Assembly (NCBI RefSeq): GCF_000189635.1
Contig: NW_002476363.1
Coordinates: 620,001-684,000, forward strand
Reading direction: 5' to 3'
DNA length: 64,000 nt
Origin: Tetrahymena thermophila SB210
Lineage: Eukaryota; Ciliophora; Oligohymenophorea; Hymenostomatida; Tetrahymenidae
Part shown: piece after piece, positions 21,219-32,657 of the stretch
How the letters are laid out: each line of letters begins with the position of its first letter
Numbering within the stretch: position 1 is the stretch's first letter
Program-made: the position numbers and the translations under genes
Notes under the pieces: generated by a model
What the model saw: only the letters and a program-made list of their open reading frames with translations
Told to the model about the DNA's origin: nothing
Databases searched by the model: none

Positions 21219-23875
21219 TCATTATTGATTAGGTTCATCATATTATTCTTAGATTATTGCCTATTTTATAATTTGCTTTTTGTCAAAATCAAGCTAAGAA
21301 TTTTTTTAATTAATACAACACATTTATAGAGCATTCCTTAGACTATATTTTGTATTTATTTTTTTAGGAGTTTTAGTTTTAGTTGAAGTACTTTAATATT
21401 ATTATTATTAAGATTATTCTTTCATGTTGCTTCCAAACATTTCTGAATCTATATTGTTATTAGGTTCTTTGCTCGAAGTTAAAGAAGAGCTTTCACGAAA
21501 AGTCTCACCTTTAGCTTTGGCATTATATCGTTCATATGTTGTTTAGTTTAAAAAGAGATTATTAATCTATACAAAGCAGAGAACAGATAACATACAGAAA
21601 AATGGAAGAGTAATTGCAACTATCAAAGCAGCAGCAACATATTTAGTAATCAAAAGAGAATGTAGAGTGTTTTCAGATAAATTCTTGAACCAATTCAATA
21701 TAAATGTATCTTCATCATCGTATTATGTCAACAAATGAAGGAAAGTTAAAACAAGTAGCGTTAATTTATTTAACCATAATAAAATTATGAATGAAATAAA
21801 ATATTTATAATTATTAGCTCCAACACAATTATTTACCCAAGGACAATGATGGTCATAAACTTTGATACATTTTTTACAAATTTCACAATGCTTTGAGCGC
21901 AAGGGTCTTATAATTTAGCAGTCTAAGCATATAGTTTCAATAGGGTGTGATTTTAAAAGCAATATAAGCTCATCTTTTTATATTATTTGATTCTATGCTA
22001 AAAGTGGTTCTTCAAGCTAGCCTTTACTCTCATCAAGTATTCTAACTGATTAAGGTTTCTTTGATTCAATAATAGAATCTAAATTTTCTCCTTGTTCATG
22101 ATTTTATGCAGATGTTAACTTATTATAACCATTTTATCGAATAGAATACTTATTTAATGATTCAGTAGCAGACGAACTAACACAACTAAATTAATTTAAA
22201 TTTTATATTTAACGCTAAATTACTAATGTCTCCTTATTATTAATTCCAGTAACCTCACCAGGATTAACATTCCAAACTATAATTTACATGATCAGTGTGA
22301 TACAGGATAACGATGCCCAAATGCTAAACTAAATAAACTATTCATCTAGACAAGGAATGTAAAAAGTAGCAAATAAAGATTATACAAAAAGAAATAAGAC
22401 GTAAAATATTATGACTTATTTTAAATTCTTATCAATTGGACGAAACGGCTAACGAATGTTGCAATATTCTTCAAAACCATCATCATTATCTATCATGTTA
22501 GCTATGTTTTCATAGCCTTCTTACTATGCAAGTTAACCAGGTGTCTTATCTTTTTTATCTATCAAGTTTCTATTTGCTCCTTTAAGGAGAAGACGTTTTA
22601 CTGCTTTGGCATTTCCACTAATAACAGCTAGGTGTAAAGGTGATAGTCCTTGCTTTTATTTTAAGTAAAAAGAATTAAAAAAAATAATATTTTAATTTTG
22701 ATCATTTTTAAACAGACAAATTTTAGAAATTAAATTGAAAATTTTTTTGCGAATTTATAACAAACAAACAATAAATTTAAATTTTATAAAATAAAAATAA
22801 AAAAGTTAATTCATTCTTTATTTTTCTAGAAAGTAAGTTTTTTTAAATTTATTATTCAAAAAAACCTATTTTTATTATATTTTGGATTTTTAAGATTTAA
22901 TCATCAAAAAATAATTAAAAAGATCAAATTGATCTAGTTAGCACGCACTCAACGTTATTAACAACTAGTAAACAAGTAAGGCTATTAAAGTTTAAAAGTA
23001 GTGCAAAGTGATGAGTTTTAATATAAAAAATTCAATTTATTTTTCTTAGATAAATAAAAGCAAGTAAAAATATTCAAAGCTAAGTAAAAATCTAAGTGCA
23101 TATTTTATATTAGAAGCAATTAATTATGTTTATGAATTTAGATGTATAAAATTTTTGTTCTATAAAATTTTGTTACTGAGTCAGGTTGATTGATATCAAT
23201 TTCAGAGTATGAAGTCAAATAGTTTATTGCATTTTCATTTCCCAAAAAGCAAGCCCAATGAAGGGGATTTCCTTGTTTATAATCTAAATCTAATGCGTTT
23301 AACCCTATTTTTTAAAAATATCTGATCGAAATAGGCTAATCACCCTATGCAGCAATATGCACCGAATTCAATCCTTTACTGTTTCTTGCTTGGATATCAG
23401 CGCCATTATTAATCAAAAATTGTATTATTTTTAAATCTCCTCTATATGAAGCAAAATGAAGAGCTGTAAACCCACCTTCTGTTTTTATATTAAACCAATT
23501 AGCCAAATTTTGTTTAACATCTGCTTCCTATAGTCTATTGCATTTGAAAAACTTTTTTACATAGTCAGTAATCTTTACAAGGTATGTAATATTCTGATTT
23601 AAAACTATTTTATGAGCTAATGTGTAATTTTTTCTATCTACTAAAGTAGTTATATCTAAATTTTAATTCTAGTTTAATAACTTTTCAAGATTTTCGAATT
23701 AGTTATTGTTGAAAAATTAATTAGCTAAGTTCAACTATTATTATGCGCTATATTTTGTTAAATCAGTTTGATTGAAGTTAAAGTTTTCAAATTTATCTTC
23801 TTGGCTACTCTAGAAAAACTAAGATGAATTCATATCACCTTCGCTATTAGCTCCATTTTCATCTATTCTCTCCAT
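21219..23875 (-). CDS. Ankyrin-repeat DHHC palmitoyltransferase, paralogue 1
   Basis: Two exons, 23875-23177 and 22652-21219. The intron 22653-23176 starts GTAACA and ends AAAAG. Total 710 residues, TGA 21219-21221. Residues about 130-330 hold ankyrin repeats ([39 protein letters not shown], and across the splice [17 protein letters not shown]). Four membrane segments surround a Cys-rich domain whose spacing fits the zinc-binding DHHC-CRD: CLDC, C-E-I-C-K-K-C, then [16 protein letters not shown] at about residue 500. Cys of DHHC is the acyl-acceptor nucleophile. The tail is S/T/N/Q-rich. The architecture (ANK then 4 TM with DHHC) is that of Akr1/ZDHHC13/17 enzymes, which S-palmitoylate membrane proteins on Golgi or endosomal membranes. 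A paralogue lies at 30273. Confidence 0.9.
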
Positions 23876-24557: not shown

Positions 24558-25233
24558 TCAATTTTCTATATTCTAACTATATTTCTAAATAAGATCTAAA
24601 ATTTCTTTGGAACTGCAATGTCCATTTGAGCTATCATCTACAAAGGTGTAAATTATTTTTCCATCTGTTTCAAATATATAAGTTCCTCCTAACTTTTAAT
24701 TTATAGAAGTGCGAATTAAATTAATTTGTTGAATGTGAAATTTTTAATTTTACTTGATAAATGTCTCCTTGCCTTTTCTTAGTAATAATACTGCAAGCAG
24801 TTTTGCATAAACCGCAAAAAGTAGAAGTTTTTGTGTCCTCTGATTTCTTTCCTGATCTTACTTAGGAAATAGTTTCAGCCCTCATCATTCCTAATTTATT
24901 ATAGGTGAAGCGTTAAGTGTCAACATATATAAGTTAACTAGGGAATTTTGTTTCTAATGAAAAATTTTTAATTCCACTTATTTCTCCACACCCAACAACA
25001 TAGAGGTTTATATTTTTTTATTTTAGATCGCCAAAGTTAATATCTTGTGCAAGAGCTCTCACAAAATCTTAGCAAACATAGCAAAAGAAATGACGTATAA
25101 ATACTATAATTGTACGTTTGTCCTCAAAAAGAGTCTTAAATTTTATTCCTTAAGCATTTTCATTGTATACTAGAAAATTTCCCAACTCAGAATCTACTTT
25201 AGTTGGTACTTTCATTAATTTTTTATTATCCAT
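24558..25233 (-). CDS. AhpC/TSA-family thioredoxin-fold protein (PRXL2C/AAED1-like), Cys form
   Basis: Exons 25233-24754 and 24692-24558, intron 24693-24753 (61 bp, GTAAAA...AAAAG). 204 residues, TGA 24558-24560. The N-terminal half has a strand TIIVFIRHFFCYVCQDF in which C51-x-x-C54 is the putative redox pair. This matches the RHFLCYTCKEY-type motif of PRXL2C/AAED1 (AhpC-TSA_2 family), thioredoxin-fold proteins related to selenoprotein U. Later features are NLYVVGCGEISGIKNF and the C-terminal LGGTYIFETDGKIIYTFVD, a typical peroxiredoxin-like strand pair. A second cluster of cysteines (CGLCKTAC) lies near residue 150. The likely role is thiol redox chemistry in the cytosol, with the partner unknown. 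The neighbouring gene at 26257 is a close paralogue with TGA in place of the codon for C51. Confidence 0.85.
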
Positions 25234-26120: not shown

Positions 26121-26193
26121 TAGAAAAACTATTTTGTTCAAAATATAACCTTCTTTATAGATTTAGATTAAATTTATCATTGCAGTTTTACTA
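26121..26193 (-). promoter_or_regulatory. SECIS-like stem-loop in the 3' flank of the TGA-containing PRXL2-like gene
   Basis: On the minus strand, 64 nt after the stop codon, the sequence can fold into a eukaryotic SECIS shape. The basal helix TAGTAAAACT/AGTTTTTCTA has 9 of 10 pairs and one T-T mismatch. The internal loop is GCA on the 5' side and ACAAAAT on the 3' side. The non-Watson-Crick core would be ATGA (26180-26177) opposite TGA (26140-26138). The helix between them (about 10 pairs, TAAATTTAATC with GGTTATATTTT) ends 12 nt after ATGA at an unpaired AAA in the apical loop. ATGA, AA in the loop, GA, and the 11-13 nt spacing are the diagnostic SECIS features. Folding was judged by eye in very AT-rich DNA, so chance pairing must be excluded. 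Confidence 0.7.
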
Positions 26194-26256: not shown

Positions 26257-26945
26257 TCAAGCATTCTGGCCATATTTTTCAACTAAATCAGTTATTTCTG
26301 TTGAACTAACATGCCCATTCGAGCTTTCATCCACAAAACTATAAGTAATTTTGCCATCAGTCTCAAAAATATACGTTCCTCCTAACTTTTATATAAATTT
26401 TATTAAATAAAGCTCAAAATAATTTTAAAATAATATTAATAAAGTCATATTTAATTTAGTTTTACTTAATAAACATCTCCTTATTTTTCTTTAGAAATCA
26501 TTTTACAGATAGACCAACATAATCCTCCACAAAATGAAGATTTTGTATCCTTTGATTTCTTTCCTTTACTTATTTAAGATATAGTTTCAGCTCTCATCAT
26601 TCCTAATTTTGTGTAGGTGAAACGCTCAGAATCGACATATAATAATTAACTAGGGAATTTAGTATCTAATGAAAAATTTTTAATACCATTAATCTTTCCA
26701 CATCCAATCACATAGAGATTGATATTCTTTTACTTTAGATCATCAAAGTTTATTTCTTATGCAAGAGCTCTGATGAAATCTTTGCAAACATATCAAAAGA
26801 AATGACGTATAAAAACAATTATAGAGCGTTTCTCCTCATAAAGAGTCTTAAATTATATTGCGTTACCGTTTTCATCATGAATAAGATAACTACCCAGCTT
26901 AGAGTCAACCTAAGAAGGTACTTTTTTTAGTTTATCATTATCCAT
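26257..26945 (-). CDS. Candidate selenoprotein: PRXL2/SelU-like redox protein with in-frame TGA
   Basis: Exons 26945-26466 and 26385-26257, intron 26386-26465 (80 bp, GTAAAA...AAAAG, at the same position and phase as in the paralogue). Including Sec51 it is 202 residues, ending at TGA 26257-26259. The redox strand reads SIIVFIRHFF-[TGA]-YVCKDF: codon 51 (26795-26793) is TGA where the neighbouring paralogue has TGC. All of the remaining ~150 codons stay homologous (NLYVIGCGKINGIKNF, RAETISQISKGKK, LGGTYIFETDGKITYSF), so this is not a decayed tail. UxxC in place of CxxC is known in selenoproteins of thioredoxin-fold families, including SelU relatives. Together with the downstream SECIS-like fold, the simplest reading is Sec incorporation. 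Alternatives are a recent nonsense mutation or a sequence error (one base, TGA versus TGC/TGT). Confidence 0.8.
26793..26795 (-). other. Putative selenocysteine codon (TGA, codon 51)
   Basis: TGA in the first position of the UxxC redox motif. The aligned codon in the paralogue at 25081-25083 is TGC, also codon 51 counted from its ATG. Confidence 0.75.
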
Positions 26946-27623: not shown

Positions 27624-29138
27624 TCAAAAAGTAATCGGAGGAATTATCGTTAGAGTTTCTAAAATAAAGTTAGGAGGAGTATCAATTAGTAGCTTTATAA
27701 AATTTTAGTTGAATTTTTTTTATTGAGATTTTTCTTTTAGGATATCATTTAAGTAAGATTATAAGGTAATTCTTGAGTTTTAAATGGTGAAAAATACTTT
27801 GGAGTTAAGCTTAAAATTAAATTTAATAATTTCTAAATGCAATTGATCTATTTATTTATAAAGAGAGATAAAATACTTCAATAAGTGAGCTGATATTTTA
27901 AAATTTAATTTAATTGAAAATGATTTCATTGTTTTAGGTATTTTAGAAAGCATATTATCATTTATTTAAATTTTATCTAATGTAAACTTTGGTTACTTTA
28001 AAGAAAGCTTAAAATATTTTAATTATTTTGGAAATTAATCAAGATTATCAATTATAAATTAAATGCTTTTATAGTCTGTCTCTTCGTCATTAAGAGTTAA
28101 ACGTAGATGTGTAATATTTTGATTTTAATATAATCTTTTAAAGAAATCTATAATATCATCGTCGCTATTATAATTTTCACTAAAGTCTAAATATACTTTT
28201 TAAAGGTTGTTTAAAGGAAATACTTTTAATGAGTCGTTTGTGTTATAACCAGATACTTAGCAGTAGAATTTTATAAGATTAGTAGGCAAATACTTAATCA
28301 CTATATTTAACGAGTCTTGTGAAATTAAATTTTATGGAAAGAACAATCTAAGTTTTGTTAAGTGAGCAAAATTTTTACTGAGAGCTTGCATAAAATATTG
28401 AATTTCATCATTTGAATATTAAGCAGATTTACATTTAATCTTTATATTATTTATTGAATGAGGCATGCTTTGAAATATTTAATAAAATGGCTCAAGTGAG
28501 CTTATTTCATCTATGACAATATTAATTTTTTGCAGATTTCGTGGTAGTCTACTTAAATTTTGTGCAAAGGTAGCAAACTAAATAGGAGATAGCTAAATGT
28601 TTTTTACGACAAGCTTAAGTCTTTTTAGATTTTAAGGTAGAGTATCAAATTTTTTAGAGAGCTCTAATAAGTTAGAAAATCCGCTGAGGTTCAACTTTAA
28701 TGCTAAGAGTCGAGGGTTAAATCTAGGTAGATTTATAATTAAAAAGCGAGAAACATTATCTTCATTATCGTAGAATACCATCGAAACATGTATGGTAAGT
28801 ATCCCTTTTGGTAAAAATAGAAAATTTTTAAAAAGCAAATCTGCTGTTTCGATATCCATATTATAGGGACTGACATAAAAGTTAGCCTTTTGCAATGTCT
28901 AAGGAAGATTTCTCATATTCTCAAGAATGCTGAATACATTTAGTTTTGTTATATATAAGAAATGTATTTCAACCAAATTTTAATTCTACAAAGCGAGTAA
29001 ATCTTATCCAAGAACTTCATTTAAGTTTGAAGCTTTATAAACTACAGGGTATTGTTCATGAATGTTTTCAAAAAGAAATTCAAAAGATTTATTTTTATCT
29101 TCATTGTGAGAACTGTTAATTACTATTTTATTTTTCAT
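27624..29138 (-). CDS. Leucine-rich, LRR-like protein of unknown function
   Basis: Uninterrupted frame from ATG 29138-29136 (after a run of A) to TGA 27624-27626, 504 residues, no intron needed. From about residue 60 the protein shows irregular repeats of roughly 25-30 residues in which short strands such as LLALKLNLSGF, LKRLKLVVKNI, LQKINIVID, LTKLRLFFPQ, LQKVYLDFSEN, ITHLRLTLND and LKYFKLSLKQ alternate with helical stretches. The pattern L-x-x-L-x-L with P-x-x-L turns is that of divergent leucine-rich repeats, common in ciliate proteins of the kinase/cyclic-LRR type, but no kinase or other domain is present. No signal peptide or transmembrane segment is seen. A scaffolding role is possible but not shown by the sequence. 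Confidence 0.7.
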
Positions 29139-29327
29139 CATTTTTTTTTCTATATAAATTTGAAGTAGATTGAGAAATAAATAGAAATTCTTACTACTTT
29201 TTTTAAAAGTAACAATTTTAGATTGATTGATTAATTTATTAATTAATTATATTTCAAAAGATTAATTTAAGTGCCTAAAACTAAAAATAAATAAATAATA
29301 TTTGACAACTATTTCAGATCATTTTAA

Positions 29328-30272: not shown

Positions 30273-32657
30273 TCAGGGAGATTGCTGTTAGTTGTTGTTG
30301 ATGTTCTTAATTGGAGGGGCGTAGTCGTATTATGGATCTTTAGAATTTTATATACACATTAAATAAGCGTTTTTGAATGAAACTTTTTTTACTCCATACA
30401 CTAGTTTGTTTCTATTTTATTAATTAGAAGTTCTAGAGTTTGATTAAATTATGGAAGGATTTGCATCTGTAGTAGAAGATTATTCACTTTTTTTAGATGA
30501 TACAACATTAGCACCATCTCCATTATTATCTACTTCGTTTCCATGTTATTAATGAGTGTTATATCTTTCAAATGTAGTTTAGTTAAGGAAAAGATTATTC
30601 AATTAAACGAAGCACAAAATAGAATGAAGAACGAAGAAAAAAATAATCAAAAGTGTCACTAAACCTGAAACTACGTACTTTACAATTTAAATTGTGTCTT
30701 GAGTTTAGGCTGATAAATCTGAATACCAATTAAATATCCAGCTGTCTTGAGAAATGTGCTCATCACTGTAGTTTGAAGTTATGTGGAAAAGTATCAAAAG
30801 CAATCCAACTAGCATATTGAACCACATAAAAAGAATAAACATTATGAAGTATTTATAATTATTTGCACCTACACAATTATTAATCCATGGGCAATGATGA
30901 TCATATACTCTAATGCACTTTTTGCAAATTTCGCAATGACGTGATCTCTTAGGCTTTACTATGCAGCACTCCACACAAATTTTGCTTACATCATTATTTT
31001 AATAAAGACTTATTAAAAAATTTAAAGTTTCTACTTCCCTCTACTTGCATGAAGTCTTTTTTTATGAACTCAAATCACTGATTTAATTATTTATGTTAAT
31101 GTCTTAAATGAGATTTTAGTTTAAATCTTAAGCTTCATTCATAGAATTGTTCACGTTAGAGCGAGTAATATGCTCATTTAATCTTGGGGTGGACTGCTAT
31201 GCTTAATCAAATTAGTTTTCATGAGATTATTCATTTTCTGAAATATTTTAACTTTATTCTAACTTATTTTAAACAATTCCATTAACTTCTCCAGGATTTT
31301 TCAACCACGCGAAAAATAAACTAAAGAGAGTTCCAAATAAAAAAAATGCCCAAATTCCTAATTCAATATAATGATAGCTTAGGCAAGGTATAATAAATGC
31401 AATAATTGTTCCCTAAGAGAAAAATAGTAGAAGGAAAAGCACTAAAAGCTGTCTTGGATTTTTATCCATAGGTTTGAAAGGTTATTTTATGTTGCAATAT
31501 TCCTGAAATCCTCCTGTTTTTTCCAGCATTTGCTAAATATTATGAAATTCATTTTCATCAGCTAACTAAGCTGGAGTTTTTTAGTTATTATCTAATGCAT
31601 TTCTGTTAGCTCCTCTTTGCAAAAGCTTTCTTACTACTCTAGCGTTTCCACTTATTACTGCTAAATGCAATGGAGTTAATCCTTCCTATATATTTTGATA
31701 TTTATTTAAACATTTTTATTTGAATTATTTTAATATTAATAGGAGAAATTAATGTAATTCGATTATTGTAAGTTAAAAATTAAATCAATAGATTATATTA
31801 AAATTAAATTCCTTAAAGTCTAAAATTTCTTTATTACTGAGAAAAATAAATTTCAACATCATTAAAATTATTAGAAAAATTGAGTGGTAATCTTATATTT
31901 AAGAGCAAAGTAATCAATCACTCTCACTCACTCACTTCTTTTAAAAATATGATATCCTAAAAAAATTAATAAAAGTTTATCTTACTCCATCTGCGTTGTT
32001 TAATTTATCCTTCATCTTAGATACAAGGTAGTTCACTGCATTTTCGCTTCCAAGGTAACATGCCCAGTGGAGCGCAGTACCGCCTTTGTGATCAGTTAAG
32101 TTAAGATCTACTCCCAAGCTATCAAAGTAGCATATTGATATAGGCTAATCGCCTTATGCAGCAATATGAAGAACATTTAATCCATTTTTATTAACTAATA
32201 ATGCATTACTACCTTACGAAATAAGGTATCTTGTTATTTCTACATCTCCCTTAAAAGAAGCATAATGAAGAGCAGTAAATCCGTCCTCATTTTAAAAATT
32301 TATCCATTTTTTAATAATCTTATTTTTTTATGCTGAGTCTTTCAGATAATCGCAACCATACTAAACTATAAATTTGACTTCATTAATTTTCATATGCAAG
32401 GTCATTCTGTGAATTAGAGTCAAACCTTTTCTATCCCATATTTTAAAAATATTTATATCCTTATTTTACTTCAAAATTTCTATAATATCTAAATATTTAT
32501 TGTCCAAAAGTTTTTCTTCAATCCTTTAAATTATAGCTTTCTTTCCTTCATCATTAAACACATCCTCATTGAGCATTTTTTTTAGCTCTGAAACAAATGA
32601 TTGAGCAGCAAAACTGCTGAACCTTTGACTTTCTGTGTACTAAGATTCATTTCTCAT
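30273..32657 (-). CDS. Ankyrin-repeat DHHC palmitoyltransferase, paralogue 2
   Basis: Exons 32657-31986 and 31685-30273, intron 31686-31985 (GTAAGA...ATATAG), 694 residues, TGA 30273-30275. It has the same domain order and the same intron position as the gene at 21219. Ankyrin repeats ([57 protein letters not shown]) are followed by transmembrane helices, a Q/N-rich insert, and the DHHC Cys-rich domain ([31 protein letters not shown] at about residue 485). Two further helices and an S/N tail follow. DHHC and the zinc-ligand cysteines are intact, so it should be an active protein S-acyltransferase. The pair arose by an older duplication than the array at 7-20 kb, since the spacers no longer align. 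Confidence 0.9.

Follow-up and report, generated by a model that had tools for sequence, protein, structure and literature searches.

What does an in-frame TGA mean in a gene of an organism that has no other stop codon? In Tetrahymena thermophila, TGA is already described as both the sole stop codon and the codon for selenocysteine (Sec) (PMC2612030, PMC7409322), and the 64,000-nucleotide stretch of DNA analyzed here (the window) contains a gene, gene A, that confronts us with this double meaning. Under the ciliate code, it reads as 50 codons, a TGA, 151 codons and a terminator TGA. We suggest, with a probability of roughly 0.93, that the product of gene A belongs to the PRXL2 (SELENOU) family and is a selenoprotein, with UGA 51 decoded as Sec by means of a SECIS element in the 3' flank, that a paralog elsewhere in the genome (gene C) behaves alike, and that the tandem neighbor of gene A (gene B) is a derived Cys form.

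The features of the three genes, and of two further candidates discussed below, are collected in the Table. In the spliced frame of gene A, TGA occurs at codon 51 and at the terminator, codon 203, and at no other codon. Read in this way under the ciliate code, a preliminary description of this DNA was correct in its coordinates for gene A, in placing the TGA at codon 51 and in counting a single internal TGA. It had also described gene A as homologous to its neighbor including the position of the intron, and phase-0 introns are indeed present at the homologous place in genes A and B. GC content is 28% and 34% in the two exons of gene A, 10% in its intron, which contains one in-frame TGA, and 14% in the 300 nt 3' of the stop. 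The A/B pair is flanked by two frames for DHHC palmitoyltransferases with ankyrin repeats (21222-23180 and 30276-31784, both on the minus strand; Pfam DHHC, 124 and 116 bits), and between the DHHC gene at 30276 and gene A lies an open frame of 564 aa (27627-29318, minus strand) for which Pfam gives no match at E 0.001.

Table. Positions of genes A, B and C and of the SelW-like and SelT-like candidates (window positions unless a contig or locus is named).
Feature	Position	Strand	Remarks
Gene A, one internal in-frame TGA	26945-26257	minus	Ciliate code, spliced frame
Gene A, exon 1 (480 nt, 160 codons)	26466..26945	minus	PRXL2/AhpC-TSA_2 selenoprotein candidate
Gene A, TGA codon 51, proposed Sec of UxxC	26793..26795	minus	Aligned with TGC of gene B and TGA of gene C
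Gene A, codon 54, proposed resolving Cys	26786-26784	minus	
Gene A, intron (80 nt)	26386..26465	minus	GT...AG (GTAAAA...AAAAG), phase 0
Gene A, exon 2 (129 nt)	26257..26385	minus	Terminator TGA at 26259-26257
Gene A, SECIS core	26137..26180	minus	AUGA, 11 nt, UAAA apical loop, 3' arm, UGAA
Gene B, tandem neighbor of gene A	25233-24558	minus	
Gene B, exon 1 (480 nt)	24754..25233	minus	Cys form, TGC at codon 51
Gene B, intron (61 nt)	24693..24753	minus	Position and phase as in gene A
Gene B, exon 2	24558..24692	minus	
Gene C, on another contig	contig C35:95869-96351		Exon 1 has 48% identity to gene B
SelW-like gene	L001:1142-1420, C334:225399-225677	plus	Rdx 43 bits, TIGR02174 53 bits
SelT-like gene	L019:1501-1923, C4:362832-363254	plus	Best Rdx match in the genome, 48.8 bits; 5' end provisional

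To which family do these proteins belong? Scored over exon 1 only and with the TGA read as Cys (gene A as 26942-26466, i.e. 159 of its 160 codons), genes A, B and C match Pfam AhpC-TSA_2 (PF13911) with 48, 53.3 and 35.7 bits, respectively, at a cut-off of 27. This match starts downstream of the motif, from residue 66 on. The best match among solved structures is PRXL2B (PDB 9us9; E 2.4e-5 with a three-sequence profile), the CxxC of which aligns to codons 51-54; PRXL2B is the nearest solved structure here and does not amount to a subfamily assignment (PRXL2A, B or C; SelU1-3). We read genes A and C as probable UxxC members and gene B as a probable CxxC member of the PRXL2/SELENOU branch. The preliminary description had proposed a UxxC protein of the PRXL2/SelU type, and this proposal is supported by the Pfam score, the structural alignment, the SECIS and the same-codon TGA in gene C. 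A model for a SelL-related redox protein (NF040769) was also considered and rejected, with 43.5, 39.3 and 44.5 bits against its cut-off of 120. Searches of prokaryotic and viral collections turned up no relatives.

Whole-genome searches covering 101 Mb on 445 contigs, one by protein sequence and one with the PF13911 profile, returned the same three places, genes A, B and C, among their best-scoring candidates. Codon 51, a Cys codon (TGC) in gene B, is TGA in both gene A and gene C. Over exon 1, gene B is 71% and gene C 56% identical to gene A. Residue identity between A and B is 66% over the 50 codons before the TGA and 74% over the 151 codons after it, in line with the about 150 homologous codons previously described; after the TGA, A and C are 56% and B and C 48% identical. 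Substitution rates tell the same story on both sides of the codon, with a dN of 0.183 and a dS of 0.99 between A and B before the TGA, and a dN of 0.158 and a dS of 1.21 after it. Between A and C, dN after the TGA is 0.33 and pS 0.69, with synonymous differences near saturation. In other words, purifying selection on gene A is as strong past TGA 51 as ahead of it. In 2000 lineages simulated under neutrality at the synonymous depth of the A-B pair, the identity kept was 29% on average and 40% at most. The A-B identity is far above these values and, thus, the stretch of gene A after TGA 51 is very probably translated and needed. The number of TGAs is by itself indecisive, because one TGA or none was seen in 11% of the simulated lineages (mean over all lineages 3.7); it is the identity that decides.

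If UGA 51 encodes Sec, a SECIS is expected to accompany it, and the preliminary description had held that its absence from a covariance search would speak against a selenoprotein. Such a search places a SECIS on the sense strand in the putative 3'UTR of gene A, starting 76 nt past the stop. It scores 38.5 bits (E 1.8e-5, both strands of the 64-kb window) with R1, a covariance model made from five of the six published T. thermophila SECIS elements together with that of the SelW-like gene, with the elements of gene A, gene C and SPS2 left out; the training elements are themselves predictions. The next best of the 19 R1 matches listed in the window has 21.5 bits, and the best of the 42 listed for 200 kb elsewhere in the genome (20 chosen stretches of 10 kb on seven contigs) has 21.4 bits. 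R1 was built to make up for Rfam, which finds neither SPS2 nor TR3, the two published T. thermophila elements on which it was tried; for the same reason, the lack of Rfam matches at gathering score in the window is uninformative. Below its gathering score of 35, Rfam SECIS_1 matches gene A with 20.8 bits at 26189-26125 on the minus strand, and this match includes AUGA, the apical AAA and UGA. A whole-genome Rfam SECIS search lists a single place, the SelW-like gene (23.8 bits), and neither gene A nor the SelT-like element (24.8 bits); having missed the latter, this search is lossy. Judged by minimum free energy, the hairpin of gene A is not significantly more stable than its composition would predict (z -0.84). 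A hand-written SECIS descriptor, which recovers five of the six published elements as well as those of genes A and C, was set aside as evidence because it is weakly specific: 12 of 3000 shuffles of the respective flank attained the score of gene A (15.5) and 84 of 3000 that of gene C (13.5), and of the 850 overlapping tiles of 300 nt taken from the window, among them that of gene A itself, 7 and 17, respectively, did so.

The SECIS of gene C is weaker than that of gene A and modest. R1 gives it 20.6 bits in the 3' flank (L004 2446-2490), equal to the score of the published SPS2 element that was left out of the model. By chance, at least 20.6 bits are reached by 2 of the 42 background matches in 200 kb, and by one more match in the window (22513-22470); with two background matches at this score in 200 kb, about 0.002 are expected per 400-nt sense flank. 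The flank of gene C holds a second R1 match of 17.9 bits. Rfam gives the SECIS of gene C 17.2 bits (E 1.3) if this short stretch alone is searched, and no SECIS match over the whole gene C locus. The elements of gene C, the SelT-like gene and the SelW-like gene start 104, 85 and 88 nt past the stop, respectively. In the 504 bases of 3' flank searched for gene B, no SECIS was found, the best R1 score being 12.4 bits. Across six elements (A, C, SelW-like, SelT-like, TR3 and SPS2), eight of the nine pairs of helix II vary on both sides in a compensating manner. The covariation score is 0.844 compared to 0.285 +/- 0.088 in shuffles and lies above all 500 of these, in an alignment that was fitted to R1 and in which two of the six rows (SelW and TR3) had helped to build the model.

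The genome also encodes machinery for making Sec and, probably, for delivering it. A tRNA-Sec with a UCA anticodon is present at C396:319831-319916 (68.6 bits at an Rfam cut-off of 47), and a SepSecS gene at C318 (437 bits). ARAGORN reported no tRNA in the window, nor in the locus (L005) where Rfam finds the tRNA-Sec. An elongation factor gene at C206, which we take to be eEFSec from its QERGITLDLGFS motif, is a likely candidate for this function: its EF-Tu GTPase domain scores 95.7 bits and its domain 2 29.7 bits at a cut-off of 30.3, while with the selB model it reaches 72 and 69 bits, less than both the cut-off of 242 and the scores of other elongation-factor genes. The tRNA-Sec model also returns eight matches of equal score (44.5 bits, below 47) on C246, C363 and C318, mostly clustered on C246 and C363; these may be genes of other tRNAs that have a long variable arm. 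A tRNA-Sec, eEFSec, an SBP2-like protein and SPS2 have already been reported for T. thermophila (PMC2612030, PMC7409322), and the published SPS2 SECIS was located in the genome. All three of the published 3'UTR segments that were looked for (from Table 2 of PMC2612030) are present, those of TTHERM_00047660 and TTHERM_00486500 being identical over 93 of 93 and 102 of 102 nt, and that of TTHERM_00522580 identical except for an A-run that is two bases shorter; use of the ciliate code is in keeping with this identity of the organism.

Could gene A be a recent pseudogene or a null allele, its TGA being a plain nonsense mutation by which the protein is cut short at the active site? TGC and TGA are one base apart, and the intact Cys paralog next door could make the loss tolerable. 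However, a gene lost in this way is difficult to reconcile with strong purifying selection past the TGA, with intact splice sites and an intact exon 2, with a TGA at the corresponding codon of the divergent gene C and with a SECIS of 38.5 bits placed 76 nt past the stop, and we consider this explanation very unlikely. It is similarly improbable that read-through of UGA 51 inserts an ordinary amino acid, either Cys or that of a near-cognate tRNA. Cys is the residue in gene B, and UGA is known to encode Cys in other ciliates, e.g. Euplotes. In T. thermophila, by contrast, UGA otherwise acts as a stop, as it does at the end of the frames of genes A, B and C, the genome has a tRNA-Sec with a UCA anticodon, and gene A has a SECIS.

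Two further explanations would do away with the TGA altogether. A sequencing or assembly error is easily imagined because a single base decides between TGC and TGA; yet, the same miscall would be needed at the homologous codon of two loci on different contigs, both of which then have SECIS-like elements, and this we regard as hardly credible. Alternatively, the TGA might be spliced out with an unrecognized short intron, as a 37-nt GT...AG pair can be drawn around it by eye. Such an intron would remove the conserved FIRHF-x-x-YVC that is common to A, B and C; a length of 37 nt is, moreover, not divisible by three, and we regard this intron as scarcely conceivable.

The reading that we favor is, thus, that UGA 51 of gene A specifies Sec. 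In this model, with the SECIS hairpin just past the terminator of the gene A mRNA, a SECIS-binding protein and eEFSec would bring Sec-tRNA(UCA) to codon 51, a UGA that lies some 530 nt 5' of the hairpin. Judging from the family, Sec 51 would be the nucleophile of the UxxC active site and Cys54 would resolve the selenenylsulfide. The second UGA, at codon 203, would still terminate translation. Gene C would work in the same way. Gene A is closer to gene C than gene B is. With gene C as outgroup, the simplest history, drawn from three sequences, would be a Sec ancestor followed by a Sec-to-Cys change in gene B after the tandem duplication from which it most likely arose; its Sec codon would have turned into a Cys codon (TGA to TGC) and its SECIS would have been lost.

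How would the cell tell the two UGA codons apart? In genes A and C, the base following UGA is U at both the Sec codon and the terminator, so that in these two genes it cannot tell one from the other. In the SelT-like gene, it is U at the Sec codon and A at the terminator, and in the SelW-like gene G and C, respectively. The distance to the SECIS is an obvious candidate for the discriminator: in the spliced mRNA, the Sec codons of genes A and C lie 532 and 569 nt from the SECIS and the terminators 76 and 104 nt. Past its terminator, the frame of gene A stays open for 184 codons (26256-25702, minus strand, ciliate code), through the SECIS, while the next in-frame TGA follows after 24 codons in gene C, 2 in the SelT-like gene and 8 in the SelW-like gene. 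We speculate that what decides between Sec and stop is how far a UGA lies from the SECIS rather than the base that follows it, and that the A/B pair possibly serves as a selenium-dependent swap of isoforms, a combined proposal that we advance as doubtful.

The two further candidates in the Table have their own in-frame TGA. The SelW-like gene has CGG-TGA at the CxxU position and a SECIS at L001:1509-1550. The Rdx gene on C4, to which we presumptively give the name SelT, has CIG-TGA at the motif and a SECIS at L019:2001-2063 (24.8 bits with Rfam and 20.8 with R1). Whole-genome searches for SelM/Sep15 and SelK returned none; the controls were equally empty and, therefore, this is no evidence of absence. 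The six selenoproteins listed for T. thermophila in Table 2 of PMC2612030 are two GPx, three TrxR and SPS2, whereas PMC7409322 counts five and sets this count against a hypothesis linking aquatic life with large selenoproteomes. Neither the SelW-like nor the SelT-like candidate is on the published list, and the family of gene A is absent from the five or six proteins that these two sources give. That further T. thermophila selenoproteins may exist is noted in PMC2612030. If true, the two PRXL2 genes and the SelW-like and SelT-like candidates would raise the count to nine or ten. Gene A was found by aligning TGA with Cys and by a species-specific SECIS model; an annotation in which this TGA counts as a stop would cut the protein off at the active site. 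In T. thermophila, a standard model organism, the A/B pair offers a natural comparison of Sec and Cys in one genetically tractable cell in which UGA means both Sec and stop.

The Sec forms of SELENOU/PRXL2 are known from fish, birds, invertebrates and many algae (PMC2375036, PMC3316567, PMC7539508, PMC3473315). Among the matches listed from the open-licence PMC literature, mostly titles and the beginnings of abstracts, none names a PRXL2/SelU selenoprotein in a ciliate. Thus, both Sec in T. thermophila and Sec forms of PRXL2 elsewhere are known, and gene A very probably adds a PRXL2-type member to the former. The published T. thermophila selenoproteins share with gene A the organism, the tRNA and the style of the SECIS (AUGA, mostly 11-12 nt, an AA-containing loop and UGA), but as listed they belong to other protein families. 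The closest parallel in structure is the prostamide/prostaglandin F synthase PRXL2B (9us9, 9usa), in which the C-x-x-C aligned with codons 51-54 has Cys where gene A has the proposed Sec, and in which 9usa reads Ser at both positions. AhpC_b of the diatom Thalassiosira oceanica, as described in PMC7539508, resembles gene A in having an AhpC/TSA domain with UxxC; its Sec form is reported there in one diatom, with prokaryotic Cys homologs. Like gene A, members of the SELENOU/PRXL2 family (SelU1-3, PF13911) are thioredoxin-fold redox proteins with UxxC or CxxC, and Sec-to-Cys conversions are recurrent among them. What sets the present case apart from SELENOU/PRXL2 elsewhere is that the putative Sec form and the Cys form are paralogs in a tandem pair, in a host whose only stop codon is UGA.
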